Origin: Phycisphaerales bacterium
Lineage (GTDB): Bacteria > Planctomycetota > Phycisphaerae > Sedimentisphaerales > Anaerohalosphaeraceae
NCBI GenBank assembly: GCA_011053245.1
Contig: DRGS01000105.1
Span: 1 to 13,590, forward strand
Length of the DNA stretch: 13,590 bases
Reading direction: 5' to 3'
In this document: piece after piece, positions 1-12,506 of the stretch
Layout of the letters: every line of letters starts with the position of its first letter
Position numbering within the stretch: the first letter of the stretch is position 1
The notes under the pieces: generated by a model
Databases searched by the model: none
The model's input: only the letters and a program-made list of their open reading frames with translations
Told to the model about the DNA's origin: nothing
Program-made: the position numbers and the translations under genes

Positions 1-115
1 ATCGGCCACCCGCCACACCCATCGATTATCTCATCAACTCCACCCATACACATTATAGTCCGCCCAAGCCCAACAGTTATCTTCTGATAATCCTCAATAT
101 CGTCATAACTCAGCA
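1..115. repeat. Left arm of a perfect 115-bp inverted repeat
   Basis: Read base by base, positions 1-115 are the exact reverse complement of 311-425 with no mismatch. The match stops at 116/310 on the inner side. On the outer side the left arm reaches the window edge, so the repeat could be longer. The spacer is 195 bp. Both arms, read outward from the spacer, can encode the same peptide in the same relative frame (beginning LSYDDIEDYQKI). This could be a real inverted duplication, an invertible segment, or a fold-back chimera made during amplification or assembly. The sequence alone cannot separate these. Confidence 0.95.
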
Positions 116-134
116 CCCGCCCCCGCCGATCCAT
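1..134 (-). CDS. Partial small open frame reading off the window start
   Basis: On the minus strand the frame is open from 209 down to position 1, following an in-frame TAA at 212-210. The first ATG is at 134-132 (MDRRGRVLSYDD...). Before it the frame reads plausibly (LTRVYPAKGCGYALCADNK), so a non-ATG start further upstream is possible. No Shine-Dalgarno sequence is seen before the ATG. The part inside 1-115 gives the same peptide as the plus-strand frame at 311-425. No family is recognised, and the product could simply be a fragment. Confidence 0.25.
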   Translation of the reverse strand, partial: MDRRGRVLSYDDIEDYQKITVGLGRTIMCMGGVDEIIDGCGGWP

Positions 135-187
135 CAGTTTGTTATCTGCACACAGTGCATAACCGCACCCTTTAGCCGGATAAACTC

Positions 188-216
188 TTGTAAGCCTCTT
201 CGTTTCGGGTTATAAT
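188..216 (+). promoter_or_regulatory. Sigma70-like promoter in the inverted-repeat spacer
   Basis: TTGTAA (188-193) and TATAAT (211-216) are separated by exactly 17 nt. The -10 box is perfect and the -35 box matches TTGACA at four of six positions. It points toward the frame at 244 and the right arm. It lies entirely in the unique spacer, so inversion of the spacer would turn it toward the left arm. Confidence 0.4.
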
Positions 217-243
217 GACAATCTGTAGAAGGATCGCCCCCGC

Positions 244-432
244 TTGGGACGGAAAGTAAAGGGATTAATCCCAATAAAGATCAAAGGCAAGTCAGTGACA
301 ATCAGGGCGATGCTGAGTTATGACGATATTGAGGATTATCAGAAGATAACTGTTGGGCTTGGGCGGACTATAATGTGTATGGGTGGAGTTGATGAGATAA
401 TCGATGGGTGTGGCGGGTGGCCGATGAAGTGA
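244..432 (+). CDS. Small hypothetical protein, 62 aa, running into the right repeat arm
   Basis: A TTG-initiated frame of 62 codons. A purine-rich AGAAGGA lies at 227-233, 10 nt before the TTG, and a promoter-like pair lies upstream (188-216). The N-terminal half is basic (MGRKVKGLIPIKIKGKSVTI). The C-terminal half comes from the inverted-repeat arm and includes two Cys and GCGGWP. No family is recognised. Its existence depends on the inverted repeat being real. It may instead be a chimeric frame created by the fold-back. Confidence 0.3.
   Translation: MGRKVKGLIPIKIKGKSVTIRAMLSYDDIEDYQKITVGLGRTIMCMGGVDEIIDGCGGWPMK
311..425. repeat. Right arm of the perfect 115-bp inverted repeat
   Basis: This is the exact reverse complement of 1-115. 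Just after the arm ends the plus-strand frame closes with a TGA (430-432), so the sequence beyond the repeat boundary supplies the stop codon. No target-site duplication or transposase is visible beside it. Confidence 0.95.
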
Positions 433-488
433 TTTAGGGGGATCGCCTGCGGCCCTGTTAGAGTTTTAAGGAGGTTCAAGGAGCTTAG

Positions 489-692
489 ATGAAAACATTA
501 GCATTGTAAATCTTACCTTTGGCGAGATTGCGAAACAGTACATGTATCGGCACAAAGGATGCGGACAGTCAAACACTTATCGTCCGCCAAAATGGAAATT
601 CGGGGGAATATTTTGAAGGGCGTATTGATGATGTTCGTTTTTATAACTACATTTTAAGCGACAACATAATTGCGCAATTAGCAGGCATATAG
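489..692 (+). pseudogene. Remnant of a secreted LamG-domain protein
   Basis: A good translation start is preserved. AAGGAG lies at 478-483, 5 nt before ATG 489, with a second TAAGGAGG at 467-474. The first codons read MKTLAL, like the start of a signal peptide. An in-frame TAA follows at 507-509. In the same frame the sequence then stays open from 510 to the TAG at 690-692. It ends in a recognisable C-terminal strand set of a LamG/concanavalin-like domain: IVRQNGNSGEYFEGRIDDVR followed by FYNYILSDNIIAQLAGI. Such domains normally span about 150-200 residues inside much larger surface proteins, so most of the gene has been lost while start and end remain. The domain call rests on the (F)xGxIDDVRxYNxxLSxxxIxxL signature. 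An intact translated product is not expected. Confidence 0.65.
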
Positions 693-726
693 CCTTGAAG
701 CCGGCTTAAATTATCAAACTTTACCT

Positions 727-747
727 GGGCGGAATCGGCCCTTTTTT
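727..747 (+). terminator. Weak intrinsic terminator-like hairpin
   Basis: GGGC (727-730) pairs with GCCC (738-741) around a 7-nt loop and is followed directly by six T residues (742-747). The stem is only 4 bp, so it is weak. It would serve the plus-strand remnant. On the minus strand the T-run lies on the wrong side, so it is not a terminator for the symporter gene. A separate perfect 10-bp palindrome (AAGCCGGCTT) sits at 698-707. Confidence 0.35.
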
Positions 748-773
748 CAAGAGTTGAAATGAAACTGGTTTGG

Positions 774-2738
774 TCAGTTTAAACATATCCTCTTGATCAG
801 CCAGACAAGATGCTTCGGTGTATGCGGAAAGAAACCCTCGAAGGGCTGGATATCATTAACATCTGGCCTCTCGTCTCGGTCATACTTTACGCCGGGACAT
901 CCTCGGTCATAATATAATTTGCCATTAACATTATACCACGGATACTCCCTGCAGCCCTTGGGCCTTACCGGATGGATCGAGCAAAGTCCATCTTTGAGAA
1001 GGCTGCACACGCACCTTTCGGACCGGATGAACTTTGCGTTTTTATTTTCCATGACCGATTCTGCGCCGATTTTCGCTGCCTCTTCTTCTGTTATCAAGGG
1101 TGTACCTATTACATTGCAGCATACGGAACAGGCATCCTTTAAACACTCCAGCCTCATCGGTTTATTCGCCGTAACCAGACGATAGAGTTTATTTTTCCTC
1201 GCTGCTAAAACGCTTCTTATAAGTATCCAGTTGACATTGCCGGCCATGACTTTTTTGCTTTGTGCCAGTGCTACGCCAACAGCAAGTAAGAAAGACGAAG
1301 CGACCAAGCTGCAAACCGGCGCCATGAATACGAGACTGTCCCTGCCGGTCAATTTTGCGAATACCGCCGTGCCCCACCCGGCTATGAAACCTATCGATAC
1401 GGCTATCACCGCCCAGCCGGACAAAACCTTGAGCTTGTCCTTGCCGATCAGCAATGCCATGATCACAAGCGGGCACAACCCAAGCTGAGCTCCGAATATC
1501 GCAAAGACCAGATCGGCTACGGAGAAACCTGCTTGCGACAACAACTGAACAAGTACCGTGGAAATTACTGCTGCGAGTACAAGGATCAATCTGGATATGT
1601 TCAACTGGCTGCGTGACTCGAAGCTTTCTTTGAGGGGACGTCTGGCAAAATACGAAAAGACATCGACGTAAAGCGTATGCGAAACAGCTATCAGTTGCGT
1701 CGACGCAGTTGACAGCATTGCACCGTAAAGGCCCAGCACCGTTATGAACATAACGCTAATCGCAAAGAACCCACCCGTATTGCCGATCACATTGATAAGC
1801 GATATCAGCGGGTTAATACCTTCGGCGGGACGTACGATCATAAAAACAAAGCAAGCCAGCAGAACCAGCACTGTCCATGTAATCGCTGCGTTGGAAACTC
1901 CGCTCCACAATCCTACGGTTACCGTCTTTCTTTCCTCTGCGCCGGCGATACGCTGCCATACGCTCATGTCCGAGATAAAAGACGGGACATTGATAACAAA
2001 AATACCCACCATAAAACTGAGCAACCCGGCACGGCCGGCAACTGAAAAGCGCAATGTTGACGCGGGTATATTGCTGAAGCTGATCGACCAGCCGCCATGG
2101 GTAAGAGCATAATAAACATAGAATACGGACAGCGAGACCAACAGCAGCCATATCGAGAGCATCTGCACACGGTCGGTAACGATTACCGCCCGAAACCCGC
2201 CGAAAGCGGTATAAAGAAACGCAACCGTTGACAGAACAATAACTATTGTCCAGGGATGGACCGTCGGGATAAGTCCGGCAAAGAATTTTGACCCGACCGT
2301 AAGTTCAGTCGCAAAGGCTCCGAGGAAGCCAAGACTCGTACAGATCGCCCCCACACGTGCCAAAGCCGGTGAGTTGAACTGATCGCCCAGAAACTCATGC
2401 AGAGTGGGGCGTCGCTCGTATGTCGACATTTTTTCCCATATCCGTTTCGCAAATACTCGTACCACGAACAGACCTGCCACAGTCGTAACCACCGTCCACA
2501 ACAGCCATATTCCAAAATAACCGGCAAGTTCGAAAAATGCCATGATAACCGTTGCGAAGGATATGCTTGTCGCTACGGTACTCGACGAAAACTCCGCCGA
2601 GTTCTTCACACAAGCCTGCCTCCTCTGGCCCAATGGCAGCAGATCGGCTACGCCTTTGGTTCGCCGTCCGATGGTCAGACCGATACTCAGGTAAACAACC
2701 AATACAAACAGCAATGAGAATATGATGGTAGTAGTCAC
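774..2738 (-). CDS. Sodium:solute symporter fused to a YkgJ-type Cys-rich domain, 654 aa
   Basis: Inner-membrane transporter of the sodium:solute symporter (PutP/SSS) family with an extra C-terminal domain. Residues 1-495 are hydrophobic with about 12-13 membrane segments and the family signature YTAFGGFRAVIVTDRVQ (176-192). A segment at 340-362 (AMLSTASTQLIAVS...) matches the family helix whose Ser/Thr (S343, T344 here) help bind sodium. Ordinary members end near 450-550 aa. Here residues 532-614 carry a YkgJ-like zinc/iron-chelating module: C532-x4-C537-x2-C540-C541, C576, C578, C586, C596 within PVRPKGCREYPW, and C614. It should face the cytoplasm. The start is a GTG two bases after the stop of the cyclodipeptide synthase gene (TAAATGTG), implying translational coupling. 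The competing ATG one base upstream meets TGA at once. The substrate cannot be read from sequence; the neighbour suggests a cyclic dipeptide or related solute (inference). Confidence 0.88.
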   Translation of the reverse strand: MTTTIIFSLLFVLVVYLSIGLTIGRRTKGVADLLPLGQRRQACVKNSAEFSSSTVATSISFATVIMAFFELAGYFGIWLLWTVVTTVAGLFVVRVFAKRIWEKMSTYERRPTLHEFLGDQFNSPALARVGAICTSLGFLGAFATELTVGSKFFAGLIPTVHPWTIVIVLSTVAFLYTAFGGFRAVIVTDRVQMLSIWLLLVSLSVFYVYYALTHGGWSISFSNIPASTLRFSVAGRAGLLSFMVGIFVINVPSFISDMSVWQRIAGAEERKTVTVGLWSGVSNAAITWTVLVLLACFVFMIVRPAEGINPLISLINVIGNTGGFFAISVMFITVLGLYGAMLSTASTQLIAVSHTLYVDVFSYFARRPLKESFESRSQLNISRLILVLAAVISTVLVQLLSQAGFSVADLVFAIFGAQLGLCPLVIMALLIGKDKLKVLSGWAVIAVSIGFIAGWGTAVFAKLTGRDSLVFMAPVCSLVASSFLLAVGVALAQSKKVMAGNVNWILIRSVLAARKNKLYRLVTANKPMRLECLKDACSVCCNVIGTPLITEEEAAKIGAESVMENKNAKFIRSERCVCSLLKDGLCSIHPVRPKGCREYPWYNVNGKLYYDRGCPGVKYDRDERPDVNDIQPFEGFFPHTPKHLVWLIKRICLN

Positions 2739-2740
2739 AT

Positions 2741-3457
2741 TTAGCCAACTTTAAGTTCGACATTGATCCTGTCCGCCAGAGGCTTCGGAACATCGGCGAA
2801 TTTCCCCCTTGCTACGTCCACCAGGGCATGTAGTTCAGAACCGGGATAAAGTTCCACCCGCCATTTACGCTCGGACAACGCGCTGAAAACGGCTATTTCC
2901 TCCAGAAGATATTGACAACACAACTCTATCGCCTCGTCCATCTCCACGGCTATCTTACCCACCCGCTGGCTCTGCCTCCGGGCAAATGAAACGGCATCCT
3001 TTTCGATCGCAGCCTTAAACCCGGCATCGGTTGCAAAGAGCCTGTCAATCGCAGCCCTCGATTGCCGGTAGGCATCGCTTTGTAAATGTTCGTTCCATCG
3101 CGTAAGTTTCACATTGCCTCTCGAAATCGATTCGATAAACCCGCCGGCTTGGGCAATAAAGGCGTCCCCCTGCATGTGTGCAGCCTCCAAAGCTTCATCC
3201 GGTGCCAAACCGTTAACTATACGCTGATTGAAACGGCACAGATCGTCGCCTACAACAACAAGACACTGCTCGAATCTCTCCGATGCCCAGTTGAGCAAAG
3301 CTTTTAGCGAGTCGCCTTCGAAAATGGGATTCTCGATACTAATGCCAAGATAGCATTTCTTCTGAGCGAACAACTCATCCTCTGACATCCGTGGAAGGAT
3401 CTTAATGATCTTTACAGAAGGCAACTCAGGGTTTTTACAATCCGAATCCGATCTCAC
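2741..3457 (-). CDS. tRNA-dependent cyclodipeptide synthase (CDPS), 238 aa
   Basis: CDPSs join two amino acids taken from aminoacyl-tRNAs into a 2,5-diketopiperazine. They are soluble cytoplasmic Rossmann-fold enzymes related to class-Ic aminoacyl-tRNA synthetases. The length matches AlbC (239 aa). From memory of AlbC, CYLGISIENPIFEG aligns with its ALIGISAGNSYF, making S40 the nucleophile (AlbC S37) and N43 the N40 position. NWASERFEQCLVVVGDD aligns with QWAGQRFERTDVVYVD. YLLEEIAVF places Y183 and E187 at AlbC Y178 and E182. ELYPG gives Y204-P205 at the Y202-H203 positions. The catalytic set therefore looks intact. The start is GTG with GGAG 8 nt upstream; an internal Met (residue 24) is the alternative. 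The gene overlaps the regulator by 23 bp and is 2 bp from the symporter, so the three are one operon. The amino-acid specificity is not readable by eye. Confidence 0.85.
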   Translation of the reverse strand: MRSDSDCKNPELPSVKIIKILPRMSEDELFAQKKCYLGISIENPIFEGDSLKALLNWASERFEQCLVVVGDDLCRFNQRIVNGLAPDEALEAAHMQGDAFIAQAGGFIESISRGNVKLTRWNEHLQSDAYRQSRAAIDRLFATDAGFKAAIEKDAVSFARRQSQRVGKIAVEMDEAIELCCQYLLEEIAVFSALSERKWRVELYPGSELHALVDVARGKFADVPKPLADRINVELKVG

Positions 3458-4589
3458 TGCATAATCTCCGTATACTGATCAATTTCTGACACGTCTCATC
3501 GTAACCCAGACTCGTCCCGTAAACATCCGCCGCAGTCGCCTCGACCGTTGCGTTATCGATAAACGGTACGACATAGCCACTGCTCAAAACATAGACCCAC
3601 AGATTATTCATAGCGATATCCGAGTGCTGCAAAATTTCGTCTACTTCACTGACTCTGCCCTTACACGACTCGATCTGCAATTTCTCTGCAAGGATCTGAT
3701 CGAAGGTTTCAAGTTCCCGCTCGTATCTTACGCGTTCGGATTCGAATCTCTTTTTCAACAATTCGCATATTCTCTGATGGATCGGTGCGGCATCTGCCTG
3801 CGGCGGGTCCCGATAGATCATCAGTATCTTCTGGAAATTTTCTTCCCACAGATAACTGTAATCGAAAGTGCTAAAGTCCAGCATTACCTCCGGCTGACGA
3901 ACGATACCGATTATATGCGAGATCCTGTTTTTGCGTGTCGACTCCCACTTTGCCAGTTCCCCCGCGGTAACACGAGGCGTCACGTCCTTGAGATTATCGA
4001 TAAGCTGCAATACCGCGTCTAAGTAGAATGGTGCGACACCCTGCAGGATGTTTCCGATCTTGCTGTAAAGCTGGCCCGATATCGGATACTGATACGTCGG
4101 CGACATAAAGTTATCCATCTGATCGGCTGTGAATATTACCGGCGCGGTAGTCAGAAAAATACTGAGTTCATCCTTTAAGCCGCCCGAGCCGATCGCGCGC
4201 CCTACCTCGCTGGGCGAACTGCTCTCGACAATATCCAGCAGGGCGTCGAGTTTTTTAAGTACCGGCGAAAGGGAAGGCGTAGCTTCGGCTAACATCCCGG
4301 CACTGGTCCGCATATCGGCAACCGACTGCTTAACCGAGTCCAGTACCTGTATGGAAACCAGCACCTGACACAAGGGAACAAACTCGATCGTGTCAAAGGT
4401 CTGTACGATCTTGATCGCCCTTGAAGGCTGCAGTATAGCAGAGCCGGCTTCGATCATTCGATAGTGCGAGGCAGCTAATCCCATCGTCGAAGCTATCTGC
4501 GAAGATGAGATGCCTCCCAATTTGTCACGCATGCCCTGAAACACCAATCCAAGTGCCTGGGCGAGAGGATTTTTAATCTTTTGTGACAT
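3435..4589 (-). CDS. XRE-type HTH regulator with long unknown C-terminal part, 384 aa
   Basis: Probable DNA-binding regulator of the CDPS unit. Residues about 8-65 have a Cro/C1-like helix-turn-helix pattern: helix two around SSSQIASTMG (28-37), recognition helix around LAASHYRMIEAG (38-49). The remaining 320 residues are soluble, mostly helical in character, and match no family I know. Residues 280-320 (KKRFESERVRYERELE...) look like a coiled coil. The start chosen is ATG 4589, with GGAGG ending 8 nt upstream. A longer frame begins at 4643, but that lies in the promoter region and has no ribosome binding site. The stop overlaps the CDPS start by 23 bp. The large C-terminal part could be a sensor for the cyclic dipeptide, a metal or a partner protein (inference). 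It could also be a phage-repressor-like protein with another role. Confidence 0.7.
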   Translation of the reverse strand: MSQKIKNPLAQALGLVFQGMRDKLGGISSSQIASTMGLAASHYRMIEAGSAILQPSRAIKIVQTFDTIEFVPLCQVLVSIQVLDSVKQSVADMRTSAGMLAEATPSLSPVLKKLDALLDIVESSSPSEVGRAIGSGGLKDELSIFLTTAPVIFTADQMDNFMSPTYQYPISGQLYSKIGNILQGVAPFYLDAVLQLIDNLKDVTPRVTAGELAKWESTRKNRISHIIGIVRQPEVMLDFSTFDYSYLWEENFQKILMIYRDPPQADAAPIHQRICELLKKRFESERVRYERELETFDQILAEKLQIESCKGRVSEVDEILQHSDIAMNNLWVYVLSSGYVVPFIDNATVEATAADVYGTSLGYDETCQKLISIRRLCSEIGFGL

Positions 4590-4645
4590 TTTACATGCCT
4601 CCAATAATCGGTAATCATTGACTCGCGTTAGTGCTCTACGCACAA

Positions 4646-4674
4646 AGTATACCCTGTAATGTAAAAAAATGAAA
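4646..4674 (-). promoter_or_regulatory. Candidate promoter of the regulator-CDPS-symporter operon
   Basis: Read on the minus strand, TTTCAT (4674-4669) and TATACT (4651-4646) are 17 nt apart. The -10 is good and the -35 is poor. A poor -35 with nearby repeat words fits a regulated promoter, but this is not proof. It leaves about 50 nt of leader before ATG 4589. Confidence 0.4.
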
Positions 4675-4707
4675 GCTAAAATGTTAAAATTCTTGTCATA
4701 TTACATT
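4655..4707. promoter_or_regulatory. Inverted TGTAAT/ATTACA words, possible operator
   Basis: TGTAATGTAA (4655-4664) contains two copies of TGTAA. An oppositely oriented ATTACATT lies at 4700-4707. The first copy sits in the spacer of the candidate minus-strand promoter, where a repressor would block RNA polymerase. The half-sites are AT-rich and short and lie 35 bp apart, so chance occurrence is quite possible. Confidence 0.25.
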
Positions 4708-4795
4708 TCCACCCCCTCGTAAAGCCTTATTTTGCCGATGTTTAGAGTTTTTAACAAAGCTAAGATAAAAATATTTAACAAAAAAGAAAAATAAC

Positions 4796-4824
4796 TTGAC
4801 ATTTGGCTGTTTATGGTTTATTAT
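4796..4824 (+). promoter_or_regulatory. Near-consensus sigma70 promoter for the envelope operon
   Basis: A perfect -35 TTGACA (4796-4801), an exact 17-nt spacer and TATTAT (4819-4824) form a strong vegetative promoter just upstream of the gene at 4889. The flanking DNA is AT-rich, like an UP element. The expected transcript starts near 4831, giving a leader of about 58 nt. It diverges from the regulator promoter about 120-150 bp away. Confidence 0.75.
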
Positions 4825-4853
4825 TTATGTAGATAAGTTAAAGAATTGAAACC

Positions 4854-4869
4854 GCCTGCCAAAGCAGGC
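4854..4869 (+). promoter_or_regulatory. 6-bp hairpin in the 5' leader
   Basis: GCCTGC (4854-4859) and GCAGGC (4864-4869) form a perfect 6-bp GC-rich stem with a CAAA loop. It lies 8 nt before the GGGAGG ribosome binding site (4878-4883). It could stabilise the mRNA 5' end or tune translation. It has no T-run, so it is not a terminator. Confidence 0.5.
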
Positions 4870-4888
4870 AAAACGAAGGGAGGCACAA

Positions 4889-6847
4889 ATGAAAGCGGCA
4901 AAAGCAAACATTACGGCCAAAATCACTCTTTTGGCGGTGGCAGCACTGATAATCATGGCAATTCAACCGGCCCAAGCCAAAAAATCACGATCAGGACAAG
5001 CCAAATCACAGCGAAAAAGCACAGAAACCCGGCAGGAGGAGCAAAAGGCACCACCTACTCGCAAAGCCCGGCCCGCCGCCAAAGCACGTTCGGCATCAGC
5101 CAGAAAAACGCCCACTCGCTCATCACGCTCAAGATCAACGACTGCAAGGACCGCTGCTAAGAGCACCCGCTCCAAACCCCGTTCAACTTCGGCGACCAGA
5201 ACCACTGCCAGAACGAGTCCGCGATCCCAACCCCGTTCCACTTCCTTGCCCAGAACCACCGTCAGGACGACCTCCCGAAGTGCCCCCTCAGTGAGTACAC
5301 ATGTCAGGTCGTCCCGGACTTCCGTTTCTAAACCACAACGCACTGTCAGGGTTACATCATCTGTCCCGACCGTAACAGTCAACCAACGGTCTGTCCCAAC
5401 TGTAACGACCAAAATAAAGTCTGCACCAACCGTAACCATTAAGAAACGGACTGCACCAATTGTAAAGTCTGCCCCGATTGTAAGAACCGAAACACTGCGC
5501 ACCCCAACCGTAAAGGCCAAAAAGTCCCCTGCTCCAAAAGCAACTACTCGCAAAACCTCTCGAATCGCAGTAAAACTTGAATCGCCGAAGACACCCATGC
5601 CTGCATCGACAAGCAAAAGATTAATTGCGCCAAAGACTGCCGTCACGCTCAAGACAGCCGACATGGGGACAAAAAACAAACGAATCGCTAACCGCATAGT
5701 TCGCAATGACGCTACATCGGTCAAACGCAAAGGGGGAAATGTCAGGATCGCTGACCGCATCTCATCTGAGCGTACGGTAGCTGCGGTTGTAACAGAAAGC
5801 CCCGAAGCCGCCGTACTGGTAACAGAACCGGCTATCTTTACAAACAGTTATGCTAATCGCACCTCAAGGGCGACCACCAGAAACCAAACGCTCATCGTAC
5901 AAAACGTAAGCGGAACCCGTCACCACAGCTATGAGGATCGCCACCACTATGCAAGGAACCTGCAAAGTTACGCACACGTTTTTCGAGACACCCGCAGCAG
6001 ACTATGCCACCGCATGATCTGGCCAAGGTACAGCTTCAACATATCGTACCAATGGGGTCGCAGCACCAGCTACCGCCGCGTCTATCCCTATTACCATCGC
6101 CGATACGCATTCGTAAGCCTCAACGGCTGCTGGCCATCCGGATACAACTATGTCCGATACCATTGGTATCCCAGCCATTCCTATGACTGGTATGGCTATC
6201 ATCCCATCGCTCGCCAGCTCGGCAACACATACAACTACTATACATACAATTACTATAACGACGGCGCGACGGTTACCGGCTACAGCAGCGATGACGGTAC
6301 CGTAAACCACGAGACATTCGCCGACATCCGTGAAAAACTCGCCGCCGAAGACAGCACAGAACCCGAACCGGAAAAACTCGCCGACACGATCTTCGCTGAA
6401 GCCGTCACAAATTTTGAAAACGCCGAGTACGCCATTGCCGCCGAGAAATTCGCCACGACAATGGAACTGGCACCCGAAGATAACATCGTCCCCTTCGCCT
6501 TCATCCAGGCTCTCTTTGCCGATGACAAGTATCTCGACTCCGCTGTCGTTTTGCGAGCGGTCCTCGAACACACATCACCCGAAAAGGACGGCATCTTCTA
6601 TCCGAGAGGGCTTTACCTTGAAGAAGAAACCCTCCTGGCACAGATCGACAAACTCGCCTCCCAAGCTCGGCATTTCGATTTCACTCCTGACAAGCATCTG
6701 CTGTTAGGCTATCAATTACTCGGCATCGGCGAGATGGACAAGGCCATCGAGCATCTGACAAAGGCTGCGCAAAATCCCGAAAACAGTAAAGCCGTAACTG
6801 TCCTGCTCGAACTCACCGACCAGATCAAAGCGAACGGTACCAATTAA
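4889..6847 (+). CDS. Exported basic/aromatic protein with C-terminal TPR-like domain, 652 aa
   Basis: A signal peptide covers residues 1-30 (hydrophobic ITLLAVAALIIMAI, cleavage after AQA30). Residues 31-300 are low-complexity and rich in Arg, Lys, Ser, Thr and Pro, including 10-residue repeats (SVPTVTVNQR, SVPTVTTKIK, SAPTVTIKKR at 158-187). Residues 344-456 are dense in Tyr, His and Trp (HHSYEDRHHYARN..., YHWYPSHSYDWYGYHP). Residues 474-652 are acidic to neutral and helical, with TPR-like units near 498-532 and 602-633 (LLLGYQLLGIGEMDKAIEHL). The start has GGGAGG 5 nt upstream and a strong promoter. The basic tract may bind polyanions such as nucleic acid, surface polysaccharide or peptidoglycan, and TPRs normally hold protein partners. 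Both roles are inference. No named family is recognised. It heads a likely operon with the propeller protein (35 nt gap). Confidence 0.8.
   Translation: MKAAKANITAKITLLAVAALIIMAIQPAQAKKSRSGQAKSQRKSTETRQEEQKAPPTRKARPAAKARSASARKTPTRSSRSRSTTARTAAKSTRSKPRSTSATRTTARTSPRSQPRSTSLPRTTVRTTSRSAPSVSTHVRSSRTSVSKPQRTVRVTSSVPTVTVNQRSVPTVTTKIKSAPTVTIKKRTAPIVKSAPIVRTETLRTPTVKAKKSPAPKATTRKTSRIAVKLESPKTPMPASTSKRLIAPKTAVTLKTADMGTKNKRIANRIVRNDATSVKRKGGNVRIADRISSERTVAAVVTESPEAAVLVTEPAIFTNSYANRTSRATTRNQTLIVQNVSGTRHHSYEDRHHYARNLQSYAHVFRDTRSRLCHRMIWPRYSFNISYQWGRSTSYRRVYPYYHRRYAFVSLNGCWPSGYNYVRYHWYPSHSYDWYGYHPIARQLGNTYNYYTYNYYNDGATVTGYSSDDGTVNHETFADIREKLAAEDSTEPEPEKLADTIFAEAVTNFENAEYAIAAEKFATTMELAPEDNIVPFAFIQALFADDKYLDSAVVLRAVLEHTSPEKDGIFYPRGLYLEEETLLAQIDKLASQARHFDFTPDKHLLLGYQLLGIGEMDKAIEHLTKAAQNPENSKAVTVLLELTDQIKANGTN
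5360..5449 (+). repeat. 30-bp tandem repeat inside the exported protein gene
   Basis: Three consecutive 30-bp units (5360-5389, 5390-5419, 5420-5449), each beginning with a TCTGYMCC-like word and containing CCGTAAC or CTGTAAC, encode SxPTVTxxxx. A shortened 18-bp unit (5450-5467) and further degenerate copies follow. The copies have diverged, so this is an old in-frame expansion. Confidence 0.8.
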
Positions 6848-6882
6848 GACATATGATAAACATGCAACGAAAGGATGGTCCC

Positions 6883-8010
6883 ATGAAACTTATGAAAATA
6901 ACAATAATAATTATGACATTGATGATCTCCGTCTCTGCACAAGCGGTCAACTGGATAGCCTTTGCCGTTGCCCCTTCCGCCCAGGACCAGCAAAGCCCGG
7001 ACATCCACGACAACACCATAGTATGGCAGCAGCTTGACGCCGGCGACTGGGACATTTATGCCGCTGATATAACCGACCCCTACAACCCGGCTGTTTTCCC
7101 CGTAGCTGTCTTTGAAGACGACCAGACCGAACCTGCCGTTTACGCAGACACCGTCGTATGGCAGGATTTCATCGCTACCGACTGGGCTATCGTCGGAACA
7201 AAATTAGACGACATTGGCAATGTTTTCACCATCGCCGATTACGAGCAGGATCAAACAAACCCTGCCATCTATGAAAACACCGTCATCTGGCAGGACAACT
7301 ACTACGGTGACTGGGACATTTGCGCCGCCGACATAACAATACCCGACACTCCTGTCGAAACTCTTGTCACACCATTTGAAGACGACCAGACGAACCCTGC
7401 GATATATCAAAATACGGTACTATGGCAGCACGGCTCGGCGCCGGACATCGATATTTATGCCGTTGATATTTCCGATACGGCTAACCTCCAGCACTTCCTC
7501 GTCGCCGGGTTCAACCTTGACCAGCAAACGCCTGCTGTCTTTGGTTCCACCGTTGTCTGGGATGATAATTTCTTCGGCGACTCCGATATTTTCAGTGCTG
7601 ACATCTACGAAACCGCAAGACCGATAGAAAACGCCATCATCTCGAAAAGTCTATCGCAAACCAACCCCGACATCGACGGCCACATAATCGTCTGGCAGGA
7701 CGACCGCAACGGCAACTGGGACATATTCGGTTTCAACCTGACAACCGGCAAAGAATTCGTCATAACTGATGACCCCTTCGACCAGATAAACCCCGCCATC
7801 AGCGGTAACGTCGCAGTCTGGCAAGATAACCGTGACGGTCCGCAGAATATTTACGCTGTAATACTTGATGGTCCCGAAGTCGCTCAGTGCCTTGCCAAAC
7901 CCGTCGGCGATGTCAATGGCGACTGCATGGTAAACATGACGGATTTCGCCGCGATATCGGCCCACTGGCTCGAATGCAATCTCCAGCCGCAAGAAGTATG
8001 CTGGCAGTAG
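6883..8010 (+). CDS. Secreted seven-repeat beta-propeller with dockerin-like C-terminus, 375 aa
   Basis: A signal peptide covers residues 1-21 (KITIIIMTLMISVSAQA). Seven repeats of 42-45 residues follow, each with the core DQxxPAIxxNxVVWQDNxxGDWDIYAADI. They begin near residues 35, 80, 123, 168, 213, 258 (SQTNPDI) and 300. This is the expected number for a seven-bladed TolB/WD40-like propeller. Residues 341-363 (VGDVNGDCMVNMTDFAAISA then HWL) are a single dockerin-type calcium loop (D343, N345, D347 and the DF pair), seen at the end of many planctomycete surface proteins. Four Cys cluster at residues 336-373. Start: ATG 6883 is preferred because AAAGGA lies 7 nt upstream; an in-frame ATG at 6853 has no ribosome site. 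The protein probably anchors or assembles on the cell surface; the ligand is unknown. Confidence 0.85.
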   Translation: MKLMKITIIIMTLMISVSAQAVNWIAFAVAPSAQDQQSPDIHDNTIVWQQLDAGDWDIYAADITDPYNPAVFPVAVFEDDQTEPAVYADTVVWQDFIATDWAIVGTKLDDIGNVFTIADYEQDQTNPAIYENTVIWQDNYYGDWDICAADITIPDTPVETLVTPFEDDQTNPAIYQNTVLWQHGSAPDIDIYAVDISDTANLQHFLVAGFNLDQQTPAVFGSTVVWDDNFFGDSDIFSADIYETARPIENAIISKSLSQTNPDIDGHIIVWQDDRNGNWDIFGFNLTTGKEFVITDDPFDQINPAISGNVAVWQDNRDGPQNIYAVILDGPEVAQCLAKPVGDVNGDCMVNMTDFAAISAHWLECNLQPQEVCWQ

Positions 8011-8051
8011 AGTTAAATAAATAATATTCAAAAAAGAAAGGTGTGTGCAAA

Positions 8052-8462
8052 ATGTTTAAGAATGCAAAAACAATTACGATGATGTCCGCGGCAATTCTTT
8101 GTGTAATGATCGCAGCCGGATGCCAGGAAGGCGCCCAGATAGGCACGGCCATCGGCGCACTGGCAGGAGCCGGGATCGGGCAACTGGCTGGCGGTGACTC
8201 CGAGGCAACATTGATCGGTGCCGCAATAGGTGCTGGTGCCGGCTATATCTTCGGCAACGAAAGCGACAAGGAAAAAACGCAGGACCAACTCTACGCCGTA
8301 AATGACCGGGTTAACAGCCAGATCGTAAATGTAACCAACAGCAACGGCTCGATCGTACAGGTCAGACTCAGACGCCAGAACGTCGGTTGGGTTGGAACCA
8401 GAGGTGAATACTACCCGACACTTCCGACAGAGGATCAGCTAAGACCCGTTTATGGTTTTTAG
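8052..8462 (+). CDS. Glycine-zipper lipoprotein, 136 aa
   Basis: The N-terminus has a lipoprotein signal: hydrophobic stretch TMMSAAILCVMIAAGC with lipobox IAAGC and acylation at C24. Residues 31-65 form a glycine-zipper membrane module (GTAIGALAGAGIGQLAGG, then IGAAIGAGAGYIFG) with GxxxG-type spacing, as in Gly-zipper outer-membrane lipoproteins. The C-terminal half (70-136) is polar with a possible small beta fold (GSIVQVRLRRQNVGWVGTRG). ATG 8052 is preferred over the GTG at 8043 because GAAAGG ends at 8041, too close to the GTG. It lies 41 nt after the propeller gene with no terminator between. It is probably an envelope-stability protein co-expressed with its neighbours. Confidence 0.8.
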   Translation: MFKNAKTITMMSAAILCVMIAAGCQEGAQIGTAIGALAGAGIGQLAGGDSEATLIGAAIGAGAGYIFGNESDKEKTQDQLYAVNDRVNSQIVNVTNSNGSIVQVRLRRQNVGWVGTRGEYYPTLPTEDQLRPVYGF

Positions 8463-8503
8463 TTGAAACGGTTTTGAAATTGGCTTCGTTTTTCATTATT
8501 TTT

Positions 8504-8588
8504 ATCCGCGGATTACGCAGATTAACACGGATTTTTTTAAAAACTTTGCCACAGAGGTCACAGAGAACAAAGAGAACCACAGAGATTA
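8504..8588. repeat. Dispersed-repeat-like block (ATCCGCGGATTACGCAGATT / CACAGAGGTCACAGAG type)
   Basis: The block joins two words. The first is ATCCGCGGATTACGCAGATT with a following AACACGGATTTTTTT, starting at a perfect 10-bp palindrome (8504-8513). The second is CCACAGAGGTCACAGAGAAC followed by AAAGAGAACCACAGAG, with CACAGAG three times. I recall both words from intergenic regions of many environmental bacterial genomes, including planctomycetes, where they also give spurious short proteins (minus-strand reading VLCDLCGKVF). The recall is from memory and the copy number in this genome is unknown. Confidence 0.6.
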
Positions 8589-8605
8589 ATATCGAATCTG
8601 GCTGG

Positions 8606-8624
8606 GTTGGTTCGTTGAACCAAC
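8606..8624. repeat. Perfect 8-bp hairpin in the intergenic region
   Basis: GTTGGTTC (8606-8613) and GAACCAAC (8617-8624) pair perfectly around a GTT loop. No T-run follows on either strand, so it is not a classical intrinsic terminator. It lies 144 bp after the lipoprotein stop. Apart from this hairpin, the repeat block and the hairpin at 8741, the region 8463-8821 shows no supportable gene. Confidence 0.6.
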
Positions 8625-8740
8625 TATTGCGATACGAAAAGACCCTGCCACGAAGTAAACTTCTATCATGGTCTTTGCCTATAATGAGTAAAGCTTCGTT
8701 TGGGTTAGGTAATTTAGTTTTTGGTTTTTAGATCTAACGC

Positions 8741-8763
8741 GTGTGAAAGAAAGCATTTCACAC
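8741..8763. repeat. Perfect 8-bp inverted repeat GTGTGAAA/TTTCACAC
   Basis: GTGTGAAA (8741-8748) and TTTCACAC (8756-8763) form a perfect 8-bp stem with a 7-nt loop. It lies about 60 bp beyond the stop of the minus-strand Cys-rich gene (8822). It could act as a bidirectional 3' structure between the two convergent units, though no U-tract follows it on either strand. Confidence 0.5.
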
Positions 8764-8821
8764 CCTACGGTTTCGGCTACGACGCAGCAGGCAAGATGGG
8801 GGTCTATGGAGAGATGGTTTT

Positions 8822-9310
8822 TCAATGGCCGGTTAGTCGGACATGTCTGAGTACGTCTCCTGATTTAATTGATGTGCCACTGATGCACCCTGTCACATTG
8901 CAGAAAGAAATTGCGTTATTAAAATCAAGTTTTGGTGTTAATCCGACCACCACCATGTCGGCATTGGGTTTGCAACTACAGTTGACCAGTTTTTTGAACA
9001 TAACATCGCAATGGGGGCAGTGCAACTCATGTTTTACTCCATCGGCCAGTTCTCCCGATATTGTAATCTTGTCGAAATCCCCCTCAATAGCCGAAAGAAT
9101 AAATTCTCCCTCCATTCCCGGCCTTTTAAATTTAAGGCGCAGTCCGGGTACACCGTTTATTTTATGTTCTTTGTCAATAATATTGCAGCCATCGGGACAG
9201 TATGCCTCGGTTACAATATATCTCACTTTCTCGTCATCCGACTCTTTTGTGCCTTTTTTTCGCTGGGCCAGAGGGATAATCAATCTTCCATCTTTACTGA
9301 ATCGCTTCAT
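8822..9310 (-). CDS. Cys-rich unknown protein, possible metal-binding, 162 aa
   Basis: No family is recognised. It is soluble, with no signal peptide or membrane segment. It starts MKRFSKDGRLIIPL and has an AAAAGGAG ribosome site ending 6 nt before ATG 9310. An upstream in-frame TTG at 9316 is less likely. Eight cysteines fall in pairs: C38-x3-C42 (YCPDGC), C98-x2-C101 (HCPHC), C111/C113 (CSC) and C137-x4-C142 (CNVTGC). This suggests one or two zinc-ribbon or iron-sulfur sites. The middle has LRLKFKRPGMEGEFILSAIE, beta-strand-like. The antisense strand is open over the same stretch, but the ribosome site and the paired cysteines favour this strand. It stands alone, convergent to the lipoprotein operon. 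Confidence 0.65.
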   Translation of the reverse strand: MKRFSKDGRLIIPLAQRKKGTKESDDEKVRYIVTEAYCPDGCNIIDKEHKINGVPGLRLKFKRPGMEGEFILSAIEGDFDKITISGELADGVKHELHCPHCDVMFKKLVNCSCKPNADMVVVGLTPKLDFNNAISFCNVTGCISGTSIKSGDVLRHVRLTGH

Positions 9311-9343
9311 GTGCAACTCCTTTTCTATTTTGAGCTTAGTTTT

Positions 9344-9421
9344 TCAGACGTCCGGATTATAGAACATCTCGATGTAATTGAACATATATTTTTTCGCATC
9401 CTCAAAAGTTTCGTATATCGC
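9344..9421 (-). pseudogene. C-terminal remnant of an IS3-family transposase (OrfB)
   Basis: On the minus strand a frame of about 25 codons ends at TGA 9346-9344. It reads AIYETFEDAKKYMFNYIEMF then YNPDV. IS3-family OrfB proteins carry a near-identical stretch close to their end, of the form (Y/F)xTxEEAKxxIFxYIExFYNxxRRHSxLGY. Here the copy is cut right after FYNP, losing the RRHS motif. No upstream catalytic DDE region and no terminal inverted repeats are visible nearby. This is a dead fragment marking an old insertion. From 9422 to 9663 I see no supportable gene, RNA or terminator, only AT-rich sequence before the next gene. Confidence 0.65.
9356..9383 (-). promoter_or_regulatory. Candidate promoter of the Cys-rich gene, inside transposase remnant
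   Basis: Read on the minus strand, GTTCAA (9383-9378) is followed after 16 nt by a perfect TATAAT (9361-9356), 45 nt before ATG 9310. The same bases encode the FYNP end of the IS3 transposase remnant, so the promoter may have arisen from insertion-sequence DNA. The -35 is poor. Confidence 0.35.
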
Positions 9422-9663
9422 ACTATTGACAGATAATCTCGTAGCAGTACCTTGGTTTCGAGTATAACCTTAGTGTTGGGGGTAATATAATTTGTGGCTG
9501 GTAATTTGGGGTGGTTTCTGTTATAAATTGCTCTTTCCGGGGAACGGTAGAATTGCGGTTATATCGTAATAGTATTTCCCTGAGTCGTAAAAGCTGGTAA
9601 CTTCTTTTTATATAAGGTGTTAGCGGCGAACTGAGAAGTATTTTAAGTTTGAATTGGTGTTAG

Positions 9664-10440
9664 ATGTTTGCTATTATAAGTGATATACATTCGAATTTAG
9701 AGGCTCTGACGACGGTATTAGCTGATATCGAGGGGCGGGAGATTAAGACTATTTACTGTCTTGGCGACGTTGTCGGGTATGCGGCGAATCCGAAGGAGTG
9801 CATGGATCTGGTTATCGAAAGGACGAAGATGAGCGTTCTTGGTAATCATGACTATGCGGTTCTGTATGAGCCGACGAATTTTAATCTCGGTGCGGAGCAG
9901 GCGACGTATTGGACCCGCAGAGTTTTAGAGCAGGAAGAAGATGACGCTAAGCGTGCTTTGCGTTGGGGGTATCTGGGCGACCAGGAGATGCGCCTGACGA
10001 TCGAGCGGAAGTTGGGCGATGTCAAGGCTCATATCGACCTTGCTCATGCTTCGCCGCGAAGGCCGATCAACGAATATGTTTTTCCGGATGACGTTTATAC
10101 AAGCCCGGCGAAAATAAAGCTGCTCTTTGAGAAGACGAAGCATATTTGCTTTATCGGGCATACGCATCTTCCGGGAGTTTTTCTTGAGGATCCGGATTTT
10201 TATACGCCGGACGAACTTGGCGGCGTGTATCCTATTCTTAAAGATGAAAAGGCTATTATCAATGTGGGTTCGGTCGGGCAGCCGAGGGATCGGGACTGTC
10301 GTGCAAGCTATGTTTATGTCGAAGAGAATGAGGTGCATTTTGTGCGTTTGGAGTACGATCATGAGGCGGCTGCGAAGAAGATATACGCGATTGAACAGCT
10401 TGACGATTTCGAAGGTGACAGGCTTGCCGACGGCAGATAA
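9664..10440 (+). CDS. Calcineurin-like metallophosphoesterase, 258 aa
   Basis: A complete set of metallophosphoesterase metal-binding motifs is present in order: SDIHSN (D7, H9), GDVVGYAANP (D35), GNHDYA (N61, H62, D63), H128 in LAHASPRRP, GHTHLP (H166, H168) and NVGSVGQPRD (200-209). The protein is soluble with no signal peptide. This form (DIHSNLEAL near the start, GDVVGYGxxP, GSVGQPRD near the end) belongs to the bacterial YfcE/diadenosine-tetraphosphatase-like group; the physiological substrate is usually unknown. No clear Shine-Dalgarno precedes the ATG. The insert at residues 75-120 (QATYWTRRVLEQEEDD...) is helical and may cover the active site. It is 39 nt upstream of yidC and may be cotranscribed with it. 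Confidence 0.88.
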   Translation: MFAIISDIHSNLEALTTVLADIEGREIKTIYCLGDVVGYAANPKECMDLVIERTKMSVLGNHDYAVLYEPTNFNLGAEQATYWTRRVLEQEEDDAKRALRWGYLGDQEMRLTIERKLGDVKAHIDLAHASPRRPINEYVFPDDVYTSPAKIKLLFEKTKHICFIGHTHLPGVFLEDPDFYTPDELGGVYPILKDEKAIINVGSVGQPRDRDCRASYVYVEENEVHFVRLEYDHEAAAKKIYAIEQLDDFEGDRLADGR

Positions 10441-10479
10441 ACAGGTAACATATTTTTTCTCACGTTAGGGTTTTTTGAT

Positions 10480-12489
10480 ATGAATACAAAACGATTCGTT
10501 GTAGTTTTTCTTGTTTGCTTTGTCGGGCTTTGCGGTTTTCTCATTTACGAAACGGGATTATTCGATCAGCAGGGGCAGGCGTCAAAGGGGTTAATTACGC
10601 TTGCGGGTCAGAGTTTTCTGGAAGCGGCTGCGAAGTCTGTCGGACTTACCGACGACGAGTTCGACCTTTCAAACTTTAGAGCGGAAAAAAACGAAGATCA
10701 AATTCGCAGACTCGGCTCGCTTGACCCTGATACCGGTTATGAATTCGGATTGGAGATAACCAATAAGGGTGCGGGTATAAGGTCGGTTACTTACAGCCGG
10801 TTCGACGACAGGGATCCGGATGAGCCTGAGAATCTGCAAGTGCTTTCGCCGGTTGAGTCATCGGGGAAATATCTTTATTCGCTTGCGAACGGTAATTTCG
10901 ATCTTCTCGATCAAAAGAAGCGTATCGATCTTGGCGGGTTGAACTGGCGATTTATTGAGGGCGCAAGCGAAAGAAAAGTTTCTCTTGAATTGGTGCTGAA
11001 AGAAAACAACGGCAAAGACGCGATACGATTCGTTAAGACTTATTCTATCGAGAGGGAAAGCTTCCAGATCGATTGCCAACTCAGCGTTGAGAATCTTTCC
11101 GATCAGGCGTTGAAGACGAAGTTTGATATGCAGGGGCCGGTGGGTATAAATCGGGAGGGGACGCGGGCGGATATGCGAAAGGCCATCAGCGCTTATCTTT
11201 TGGCCGACGGGACAATAGAGTCGGTCAGTAAGGATGTTAATAAACTTCGGAAAACGACAAAGGCGTATCTTAAGGCGCTATCGGCTATGGAAAGGGATGC
11301 GGAGAAGGAAGAACTTCGTTTGAAACTTGATAATCTGAATGCGAGATTTGCATGGGCGGCGATAAGCAATAAGTATTTTGCCGCGATAGTTCACCCGGTA
11401 GAAACCGAGGGTAACGGCAAAGCGAGATTCGGGATGGGGCAATATTTCGATCCGGAGATCGCGGTAAAGAAACCGAGCAAAAATGTGAACGTAGGGCTTA
11501 CGCTGCGAATGGATCAGGTGAATTTGTCGGAAGCTGGCGGGGGCGGAGCGAAAAAAGATTTTGGTTTTAGTCTGTATGTCGGGCCAAAGGACAGGGATAT
11601 CTTTGAAGAGAATGAAGAGTATAGTAAGTTGGAGTATTTTCAGACGATTGATTTCAAGGCCTGTTGCTGCCCGGTTTCGGTTATTCGGCCCTTGGCGTTC
11701 GGGATCATGAGTTTTATGAAGTGGATGTATACGGCGATGGGGCCGCTGGGTAATTACGGTGTTGTTATAATGGTACTGGTCTTTCTTGTGCGTTTGGTGA
11801 TGCATCCGCTTACGAAGAAGGGGCAGATTTCCATGATGTCGATGCAGAAGATCAGCAGCCATCCGAGGATGGAAGAGATCAAAAGGAAATATGCCAACAA
11901 CAAGACCGAATTGCAAAAGCAAACGATGCAGTTTTATAAAGATCAGGGGGTGTCACCTGCTGCGGGCGCTATGGGTATGATGCCGATGATGCTCCAGATG
12001 CCGATCTGGATCGCGTTGTGGACCTCGATAAATATCAGTTTTGAACTTCGCGGAGCCGGCTTCCTTCCGTTCTGGATCACGGACCTGTCGGTGCCGGACG
12101 CTCTTATCCGATTCAAGGCGTTCGATCTTCCGATATTTGGTGAGATAAGTTCGTTCAATCTTTTGCCGATACTTATGGGTGTTGTGATGTACTTGCAGCA
12201 AAAGCTGATGCCGCATTCTTCTGCGGCTTCGAATCCTCAGGCTGCCCAGCAGCAGAAGATGATGCAGATCATGATGCCGCTGATGTTCCCGATCATGCTT
12301 TATAAGGGCCCGTCGGGTGTGAATCTTTATATTCTGTCGAGTATAACGGCTGGTGTTTTCGAGCAGATTGTTATTCGTAAGCACATCCGCGAAAAAGAAG
12401 AGGACGAAGGGCAGGGGTTGGTCGCGGTGACGAGTAAGACGGGCGGCAAGGTTAAGAAGAAGAAACCCAAACCGTTTTATAAGGGTTAA
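10480..12489 (+). CDS. yidC: Membrane protein insertase YidC, 669 aa
   Basis: Inserts and folds inner-membrane proteins, alone or with the Sec translocon. The Gram-negative layout is complete: an N-terminal membrane anchor (residues 5-23), a large periplasmic beta-sandwich domain (about 60-395), then the conserved five-helix core (about 400-635). The core starts with ..PLAFGIMSFMKWMYTAMGPLGNYG. Arg438 in VFLVRLVMHPLT is the conserved hydrophilic-groove arginine. The cytoplasmic loop KISSHPRMEEIKRKYANNK follows, then the Met-rich MGMMPMMLQMPIWIALW. The protein is longer than E. coli YidC (548 aa), mainly in the periplasmic domain, including a charged helical stretch at 250-285. The C-terminal tail is strongly basic (GGKVKKKKPKPFYKG), a feature linked to ribosome binding in other YidC/Oxa1 proteins. 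The ribosome binding site is weak. It precedes mnmE by 17 nt, a classical pairing. Confidence 0.96.
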   Translation: MNTKRFVVVFLVCFVGLCGFLIYETGLFDQQGQASKGLITLAGQSFLEAAAKSVGLTDDEFDLSNFRAEKNEDQIRRLGSLDPDTGYEFGLEITNKGAGIRSVTYSRFDDRDPDEPENLQVLSPVESSGKYLYSLANGNFDLLDQKKRIDLGGLNWRFIEGASERKVSLELVLKENNGKDAIRFVKTYSIERESFQIDCQLSVENLSDQALKTKFDMQGPVGINREGTRADMRKAISAYLLADGTIESVSKDVNKLRKTTKAYLKALSAMERDAEKEELRLKLDNLNARFAWAAISNKYFAAIVHPVETEGNGKARFGMGQYFDPEIAVKKPSKNVNVGLTLRMDQVNLSEAGGGGAKKDFGFSLYVGPKDRDIFEENEEYSKLEYFQTIDFKACCCPVSVIRPLAFGIMSFMKWMYTAMGPLGNYGVVIMVLVFLVRLVMHPLTKKGQISMMSMQKISSHPRMEEIKRKYANNKTELQKQTMQFYKDQGVSPAAGAMGMMPMMLQMPIWIALWTSINISFELRGAGFLPFWITDLSVPDALIRFKAFDLPIFGEISSFNLLPILMGVVMYLQQKLMPHSSAASNPQAAQQQKMMQIMMPLMFPIMLYKGPSGVNLYILSSITAGVFEQIVIRKHIREKEEDEGQGLVAVTSKTGGKVKKKKPKPFYKG

Positions 12490-12506
12490 CTCTGGAGGCA
12501 TGAGAG

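Follow-up and report, generated by a model that had tools for sequence, protein, structure and literature searches.

Among the closest described counterparts of the locus considered here is the pulcherriminic acid locus of Bacillus, wherein the cyclodipeptide synthase (CDPS) YvmC is found with the P450 CypX, the transporter YvmA and the MarR regulator YvmB/PchR, and which is linked to iron and biofilm biology in the parts of the literature consulted. Its transporter is of the MFS type. More generally, CDPSs use aminoacyl-tRNAs (PMC5816076), and what they make is for the most part regarded as secondary metabolism that involves tailoring enzymes. Some products have been suggested as quorum-sensing metabolites because of nearby PAS domains, and Burkholderia CDPS operons with siderophore pumps have also been noted (Skinnider et al. 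2018, PMC5767969, in the portions consulted). The subject of this report is a 13,590-nucleotide stretch of DNA, hereafter the window (contig DRGS01000105.1, positions 1-13,590; assembly GCA_011053245.1), from a Phycisphaerales bacterium of the Anaerohalosphaeraceae, in which a CDPS likewise occurs with a dedicated regulator and a transporter. We consider it close to an even chance that this locus is a self-contained cyclodipeptide regulatory circuit, wherein the regulator controls its own operon and also a divergent operon for predicted exported proteins.

The window carries three open reading frames (ORFs) on the minus strand that encode an XRE-type helix-turn-helix (HTH) regulator, a CDPS and a sodium:solute symporter fused to a CxxCxxCC (YkgJ-like) domain. 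These ORFs, the 23-bp overlap between the regulator stop and the CDPS GTG start (3435-3457) and the 2-bp gap between the CDPS and symporter genes (2739-2740) were reported in a preliminary description of this DNA, and all are confirmed. That description also proposed a single translationally coupled unit, and named a survey of neighbourhoods as the check on whether the trio is a chance association. The same gene order recurs across related genomes, which argues that the trio is more than chance. Among 161 genomes of the order, the CDPS profile finds 16 and the regulator profile 17 (both at E<=0.001), the seventeenth regulator being cut by a contig end, and the symporter subfamily profile finds 16 (E<=1e-60). 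The CDPS, symporter and regulator fall in the identical 16 genomes each time, and their association is therefore not a chance neighbourhood. The regulator, CDPS, symporter and YkgJ part constitute a conserved four-part cassette carried by a group of uncultured Sedimentisphaerales (Planctomycetota).

A scan of GTDB species genomes with two peptide patterns places the regulator in 17 loci, which carry Phycisphaerales, Phycisphaerae, Sedimentisphaerales, Anaerohalosphaeraceae or unclassified Planctomycetota titles, as well as one title of an archaeal metagenome-assembled genome. The last is a 3.1-kb contig titled Methanofastidiosia archaeon (L012) that carries the cassette and has probably been misbinned, its DNA being planctomycete. 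Among 397 genomes sampled from the class, the regulator is found in 10, all of which also belong to the order set. In a sample of the phylum, the Pfam CDPS model finds 3 of 392 genomes at E<=0.001, only one of which (G003) is above the cut-off while two are weak.

The strongest clue to function is the divergent operon upstream of the regulator, together with a pair of operator-like sites that lie between the two. Both the predicted exported neighbour and the two motif copies are new observations. The first gene of this operon, F3, was followed through neighbourhood clustering of 20 records, comprising the window and 19 stretches from 17 genomes, and is the divergent neighbour in 16 of them, window included. 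Two further contigs (L031 and L063) end inside an F3-like signal and low-complexity N-terminus, and the remaining two records (L065 and L066) represent only the CDPS side of split loci whose partner pieces (L068 and L069) have F3. Thus, F3 lies beside the cassette in every one of the 18 loci that extend that far, as recognized by BLAST in 16 and by the cut N-terminus in two. F4 is present in 13 of the 20 records and F5 in six, and other flanking genes recur in at most two. The pairwise distances of the regulator, the CDPS and the symporter show mutual correlations of 0.66-0.77, and F3 distances correlate with these three at 0.25-0.54, but these values rest on related loci and are not a test.

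F3 was considered as a member of the cassette and this was dropped, since its family is found in 130 of the 161 genomes of the order at E<=1e-5, where weak matches cover mainly the TPR part. Because F3 is order-wide, it is better regarded as a neighbour and probable target of the cassette. A comparison set of 20 stretches was picked for score and long contigs among cassette-free genomes, and F3 is recognized in 19. None of the four cassette parts has a homologue in these 20 stretches, some of which are short. F3 is therefore widespread and lacks the cassette in many genomes, which indicates that F3 belongs to an older locus, next to which the cassette has been acquired or lost. Mapped onto the F3 tree, cassette presence requires five changes, at least two of which are forced by well supported branches, although this is a gene tree that includes some genomes with more than one F3 match, and paralogy could add scatter.

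Across 18 cassette loci, from the window and 17 genomes, the region of the divergent promoters contains two conserved blocks, termed sites A and B. Counted as plain matches to the full consensus, these loci average 27.2 of 30 positions for site A and 25.1 of 28 for site B, compared with 19.5 and 18.7 for dinucleotide shuffles; short sub-patterns separate poorly from shuffles. The upstream regions of cassette-free F3 genes, which are a fair control for such sites, give 17-22 (A) and 16-20 (B), and one of them (L097) equals the weakest cassette locus at 22 for site A. With a leave-one-out matrix, both sites score at the expected place in 18 of 18 cassette loci, with minima of 15.7 (A) and 17.3 (B), whereas the maxima are 0.5 and 3.3 in 19 cassette-free F3 upstream regions and 6.1 and 12.8 in 360 shuffled cassette regions. 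The places of the sites come from a consensus of the same sequences, which favours the cassette loci, and thus the leave-one-out comparison is not wholly independent.

A genome-wide search allowing up to three mismatches was made in 25 genomes, 17 with the cassette and eight without. There are 11 matches to the site A pattern and eight to a pattern of site B plus the adjoining -35, each of them at a cassette, and a backwards control pattern has no matches. Copies in six (A) and nine (B) cassette genomes are too diverged for the pattern, and the window's own site A, with four mismatches to the consensus, likewise lies beyond its limit. The paired operators are tied to the cassette.

Sites A and B also resemble each other in the same orientation, more than in 499 of 500 column shuffles. 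The simplest reading is that one local regulator, presumably the HTH protein, binds both predicted operators, and we regard it as very likely that this regulator controls both promoters. Perhaps, instead, the cassette lies beside F3 by ancestry only, with sites A and B serving separate regulators or being promoter background. One ancestral cassette site with subsequent losses would fit the F3 tree, and AT-rich promoters are often alike. However, the sites are absent from the 19 cassette-free F3 promoters despite the scattered presence of the cassette on that tree, and the mutual resemblance of A and B is likewise not expected. Descent without shared regulation is thus a very unlikely account.

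The placement of the sites is consistent with control of both operons by the regulator (Table 1). A distance of 9 bp separates site A from the regulator's apparent -10, which is aligned and mostly TATAAT-like in 16 of the 18 loci and gapped in two (L060 and L069). A promoter scan did not call this -10 at 4646-4651 and gave another weak minus-strand site at 4687-4658. An alternative, longer regulator ORF could start at a GTG at 4643. Since this codon adjoins the apparent -10 and relatives align from the same Met, the start is most likely the ATG given in Table 1, in agreement with the coordinates of the preliminary description. A third, weaker conserved stretch (TAAG...TGTTTA...TTGAC) is also present between sites A and B, as observed in window positions 4590-4888 and in relatives.

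Table 1. Positions of the cassette, its predicted control elements and the divergent operon in the window
Feature	Positions	Strand	Remarks
Sodium:solute symporter fused to CxxCxxCC (YkgJ-like) domain, last gene of operon	774..2738	-	654 aa; PF00474 and PF03692
CxxCxxCC domain (residues 532-614)	897..1145	-	PF03692, E 2.3e-07
Cyclodipeptide synthase (CDPS)	2741..3457	-	238 aa; GTG start; PF16715 and TIGR04539
XRE-type HTH regulator, first gene of operon	3435..4589	-	384 aa; start ATG 4589
Regulator C-terminal domain (residues 199-382)	3444..3995	-	PLD-like fold in the model, without HKD motif; presumed sensor
Apparent -10 (TATACT) of regulator-CDPS operon	4646..4651	-	from alignment of 18 loci
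Site A, operator-like, consensus GCAAAAANNNGCAANCTAANTTGTCAAAAT	4661..4690		overlaps expected -35 region of regulator promoter
Site B, second motif copy, same orientation as site A	4764..4791		4 bp upstream of the -35 of the divergent operon
Promoter TTGACA-N17-TATTAT of divergent (F3) operon	4796..4824	+	11/12 consensus matches; best site in 400-9000
F3, predicted exported protein with K/R/S/T-rich stretch, Tyr-rich stretch and TPR repeats	4889..6847	+	652 aa
F4, predicted exported repeat protein with DIYxxNTVVWQD repeats and dockerin-like end	6853..8010	+	385 aa
F5, glycine-zipper protein with lipoprotein-like N-terminus (by eye)	8043..8462	+	139 aa; PF13488, E 3.4e-11

There are 178 homologues of the regulator at E<=1e-3, of which the best 120 were listed. 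Its match to HTH_3 (PF01381) is just below the cut-off (21.8 bits versus 23), and the same family is matched by 28 of 28 aligned regulators with E values up to 0.1. A structure model gives the N-terminus a HigA-like HTH fold, and beyond it lie a further 300 conserved residues. The C-terminal domain in the model resembles phospholipase D (PLD) by fold alone, without the catalytic motif. The HxK(x)4D (HKD) motif of that superfamily occurs in none of 114 sequences, and the regulator does not qualify as a phospholipase D superfamily enzyme by this criterion. Residues 177-192 are the most conserved part of the protein (0.97), and the confidence of the model is below 50 over residues 158-192; the segment 150-200 corresponds to window positions of about 3990-4142. 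A search of PDB sequences returned only a weak immunity-repressor match (E 0.023). For the first regulator model, Foldseek gave 374 matches at E<=10, of which not one reaches E<=0.001; the best 50 of the 374 are nearly all HTH proteins.

The overlapping genes, the patchy presence of the cassette and the HigA-like fold could also be explained by a toxin-antitoxin-like pair, in which the CDPS depletes charged tRNA and is held in check by the HTH protein of the overlapping gene. We find this highly improbable for a cassette that has the same chromosomal neighbour wherever the contig reaches, a linked transporter and YkgJ part, and a regulator with so many conserved residues beyond its HTH. Moreover, PADLOC, which is a defence library and not a full toxin-antitoxin one, gives no match for the regulator, CDPS or symporter-YkgJ proteins.

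The CDPS matches both PF16715 (E 9.5e-13; 48.8 bits versus a cut-off of 27) and TIGR04539 (E 5.7e-25; 88.2 bits versus 45). There are 207 homologues, the best 120 of which were listed, the window's own included, and all 120 of these keep S40, N43, Y183, E187, Y204 and P205. Roles have been described for S37, N40, Y178, E182 and Y202 of AlbC (PMC5935735, in the part consulted). By way of alignments with other solved CDPSs, the AlbC register would make S40, Y183, E187 and Y204 the counterparts of S37, Y178, E182 and Y202, and N43 that of N40. The enzyme looks active as judged from these residues. An inactive site was named in the preliminary description as grounds for abandoning its proposal, and the catalytic residues prove to be intact throughout the 120 listed sequences.

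The letters of the NYH subfamily stand for residues N40, Y202 and H203. The window CDPS and the other listed sequences do not belong there, as all 120 have N43 and Y204 with P205 in place of the His. They conform to the XYP subfamily (Y202, P203 and a variable residue 40), with Y204 and P205 and an invariant Asn at the X position. Among solved chains, 9j61 and 5ocd are the closest, and in alignment 9j61 shares with the window CDPS both the Y-P pair and the Asn at X; no paper was found under the entry code of the closest structure.

Positions of the P1 and P2 pockets, as given in the consulted part of PMC5816076, were mapped onto the CDPS by alignment. The 14 mapped positions have a mean conservation of 0.969, versus 0.673 for the core, and none of 20,000 random sets is as high; mean pairwise identity of the listed sequences is 0.55. 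This set is post hoc, wherein residue 155 was taken over 154 and residue 157 was left out after an earlier result, and fuller sets came later. A 15-position set has a mean of 0.946 (0 of 20,000 random sets as high), and the 12 pocket positions more than two residues from catalytic ones have a mean of 0.932 (1 of 20,000). When the pocket set is shifted by one residue, the mean is 0.778 and 1,093 of 20,000 random sets are as high. Active-site cores are conserved in general, and pocket conservation is support rather than proof. Nevertheless, because the family varies elsewhere and hardly at all in its pockets, a common product for the whole CDPS family is most likely on sequence grounds, and one compound should serve all of its members. 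The pocket letters (P1 about YGVGWVFE; P2 about D/A, S, F, R, G, E, L) match none of the motifs in the consulted part of PMC5816076.

The symporter is supported by PF00474 at 25.4 bits versus a gathering score of 22.8, and a relative (L055) reaches 38 bits. A search of PDB sequences with this protein gives nothing at E<=1. The nearest named models, sss (TIGR00813) and panF, score well under their cut-offs, and some sources annotate relatives as Na+/proline or sodium/pantothenate symporters. These names, and the use of aminoacyl-tRNAs by CDPSs (PMC5816076, in part), would suit a role in amino-acid or aminoacyl-tRNA homoeostasis. The symporter would then bring in an amino acid, and the CDPS would divert surplus charged tRNA into a dipeptide whose level serves as a readout of translation status, with the regulator tuning uptake. 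However, this proposal leaves the same operator on the exported-protein operon unexplained. It is also compatible with a role for the dipeptide as a signal and hence is not a clean alternative; taken by itself, it seems to us improbable.

The CxxCxxCC domain matches PF03692 at 31.8 bits versus a gathering score of 23. Invariant Cys residues in 14 aligned fusion proteins are C532, C537, C540, C541, C578, C586, C596 and C614, with C652 past the domain. The symporter-YkgJ fusion noted in the preliminary description is not the general form of the cassette. Three genomes and the window have the fusion, 11 have two adjacent genes (one of the 11 adjacent YkgJ pieces is itself cut at a contig end) and two are cut by a contig end, the total excluding the window being 16 genomes. 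Hence, where the DNA runs across the junction, which is so in 14 genomes, YkgJ is its own small gene in 11, and judged from these arrangements the fusion is the derived state. In the F3 tree, the window groups with the three relatives that have the fusion and with one cut locus, and a single fusion event therefore fits. Of the earlier reading of function, then, the conserved unit and the intact active site stand and the fusion is seen not to be the general state, while the divergent operon and paired operators had been overlooked.

The core of the YkgJ domain, CX4CX2CC, is like the CX4CX3CC of the flagellin lysine methylase FliB, whose SAM-dependent methyl transfer requires a bound [4Fe-4S] cluster and which has eight or more conserved Cys (PMC8598068, in the part consulted). 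FliB acts on flagellin, and the likeness is that of the Cys motif alone. By this analogy, the Cys-rich domain is probably an Fe-S site, and only by analogy may a tailoring or redox-gating role be attributed to it. This resemblance, and the precedent of pulcherriminic acid as a CDPS-derived iron chelator, could point to a metal-linked metabolite. The YkgJ Fe-S domain would then convert the CDPS product to a chelating or redox-active diketopiperazine, which the cell secretes and takes back through the symporter, with the regulator controlling supply only and F3-F5 encoding envelope proteins required alongside. Against such a scheme, the ten window ORFs scanned against Pfam include no P450, cyclodipeptide oxidase, known CDPS methyltransferase or outer-membrane siderophore receptor. 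This result agrees with what the earlier description implied, namely that the usual tailoring neighbours are missing, and the window, the one locus scanned for a P450, has no CypX-like enzyme of the pulcherriminic type. In addition, the two stand-alone YkgJ proteins that were scanned (150 and 159 aa) match PF03692 alone and have no SAM domain. A metal-linked metabolite is therefore unlikely, if less so than the other alternatives.

A regulatory circuit built on a cyclic dipeptide is the reading we favour, and its parts may act as follows. The CDPS would condense two aminoacyl-tRNAs into one particular cyclic dipeptide. The non-catalytic PLD-like domain of the XRE regulator may read a small molecule, most likely this dipeptide or a YkgJ-modified form of it; that the CDPS product is the ligand of the regulator is somewhat less than an even prospect. 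When bound at site A, over its own promoter, the regulator would probably repress its own expression, as the overlap of that site with the promoter suggests. From site B, upstream of the F3 -35, it would probably activate the predicted exported Tyr-rich/TPR, repeat and glycine-zipper proteins. Import of the dipeptide or a precursor is the most likely task of the Na+-coupled symporter, where both direction and substrate are conjectural, and the Cys-rich YkgJ domain might modify the dipeptide or make the system redox-responsive.

Such a cyclic dipeptide may serve as a signal through which the cell surface is regulated. A broader and rather doubtful extension is that it is a lineage-wide, tRNA-dependent signal, either an autoinducer or an internal reporter of charged tRNA, which is sensed by the PLD-like domain, recaptured by the Na+ symporter and gated or tailored by the Fe-S domain to set the exported surface proteins. 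Any quorum-sensing character is suggested by the operators and gene linkage only. A synthase with its own regulator, transporter and operator pair, one operator of which lies on a different operon, makes the question of whether a CDPS product is a signal directly testable.

The F3 and F4 products are both predicted to be exported; the signal-like N-terminus of F3 and the repeats of F4 were judged by eye. The TPR matches of F3 are below the Pfam cut-off, as are the dockerin match of F4 and a PD40 propeller match in one F4 relative. In cassette-free stretches (L093, L094 and L096-L102), F3 to F5 are often followed by proteins of about 190, 115 and 359 aa (families 4, 5 and 3), which occur in 8-9 of the 20 cassette-free stretches and suggest a longer operon.

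Elsewhere in the window, a perfect 115-nt inverted repeat (1-115 and 311-425, with a 195-nt spacer) lies at the contig end and is possibly a fold-back assembly artefact. On the plus strand, a frame at 510-692 ends in GRIDDVRFYNYILSDNIIAQLAGI and may represent the C-terminal end of a LamG-like domain, the 5' part of which is out of frame here. Ordinary genes follow the locus at 9664-13589, namely those for a metallophosphoesterase, YidC and MnmE/TrmE. An Rfam scan of the window gives no matches at the gathering score.

The preliminary description knew of no system with this composition, and the same is true of the literature searched here. No paper joining Sedimentisphaerales and cyclodipeptides was found in that literature, which fell short of most subscription papers. 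The XRE-CDPS-symporter-YkgJ unit is not described in the consulted parts of PMC5816076, PMC5767969 or PMC2922099. For the gene clusters of Skinnider et al. 2018 (PMC5767969), the consulted portions mostly name MFS efflux, and neither 'planctomycet' nor 'symporter' occurs in the main text. If the broader signalling reading is correct, this would be the first CDPS signalling system, within the literature searched, to unite synthase, transporter, receptor and target promoter in one cassette.

The Bacillus locus relies on P450 tailoring, whereas the cassette described here combines a YkgJ domain and a Na+:solute symporter with an XRE regulator that has a PLD-like domain, and its divergent neighbours encode proteins predicted to be exported. 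A likeness to the regulator is found in TrmB-type regulators, which join an HTH to a non-catalytic sensor of PLD-like fold. These differ in being archaeal sugar regulators with a winged helix, and no sequence or listed structure link between them and the regulator was found; TrmB is not among the Foldseek matches listed, which does not thereby exclude kinship. The Vibrio DPO-VqmA system differs in that no CDPS is known to make DPO, the receptor VqmA contains a PAS domain, and neither a symporter nor a YkgJ part is known to be involved. Its likeness to the proposed circuit is that a small cyclic molecule derived from amino acids is read by a cytoplasmic DNA-binding receptor.

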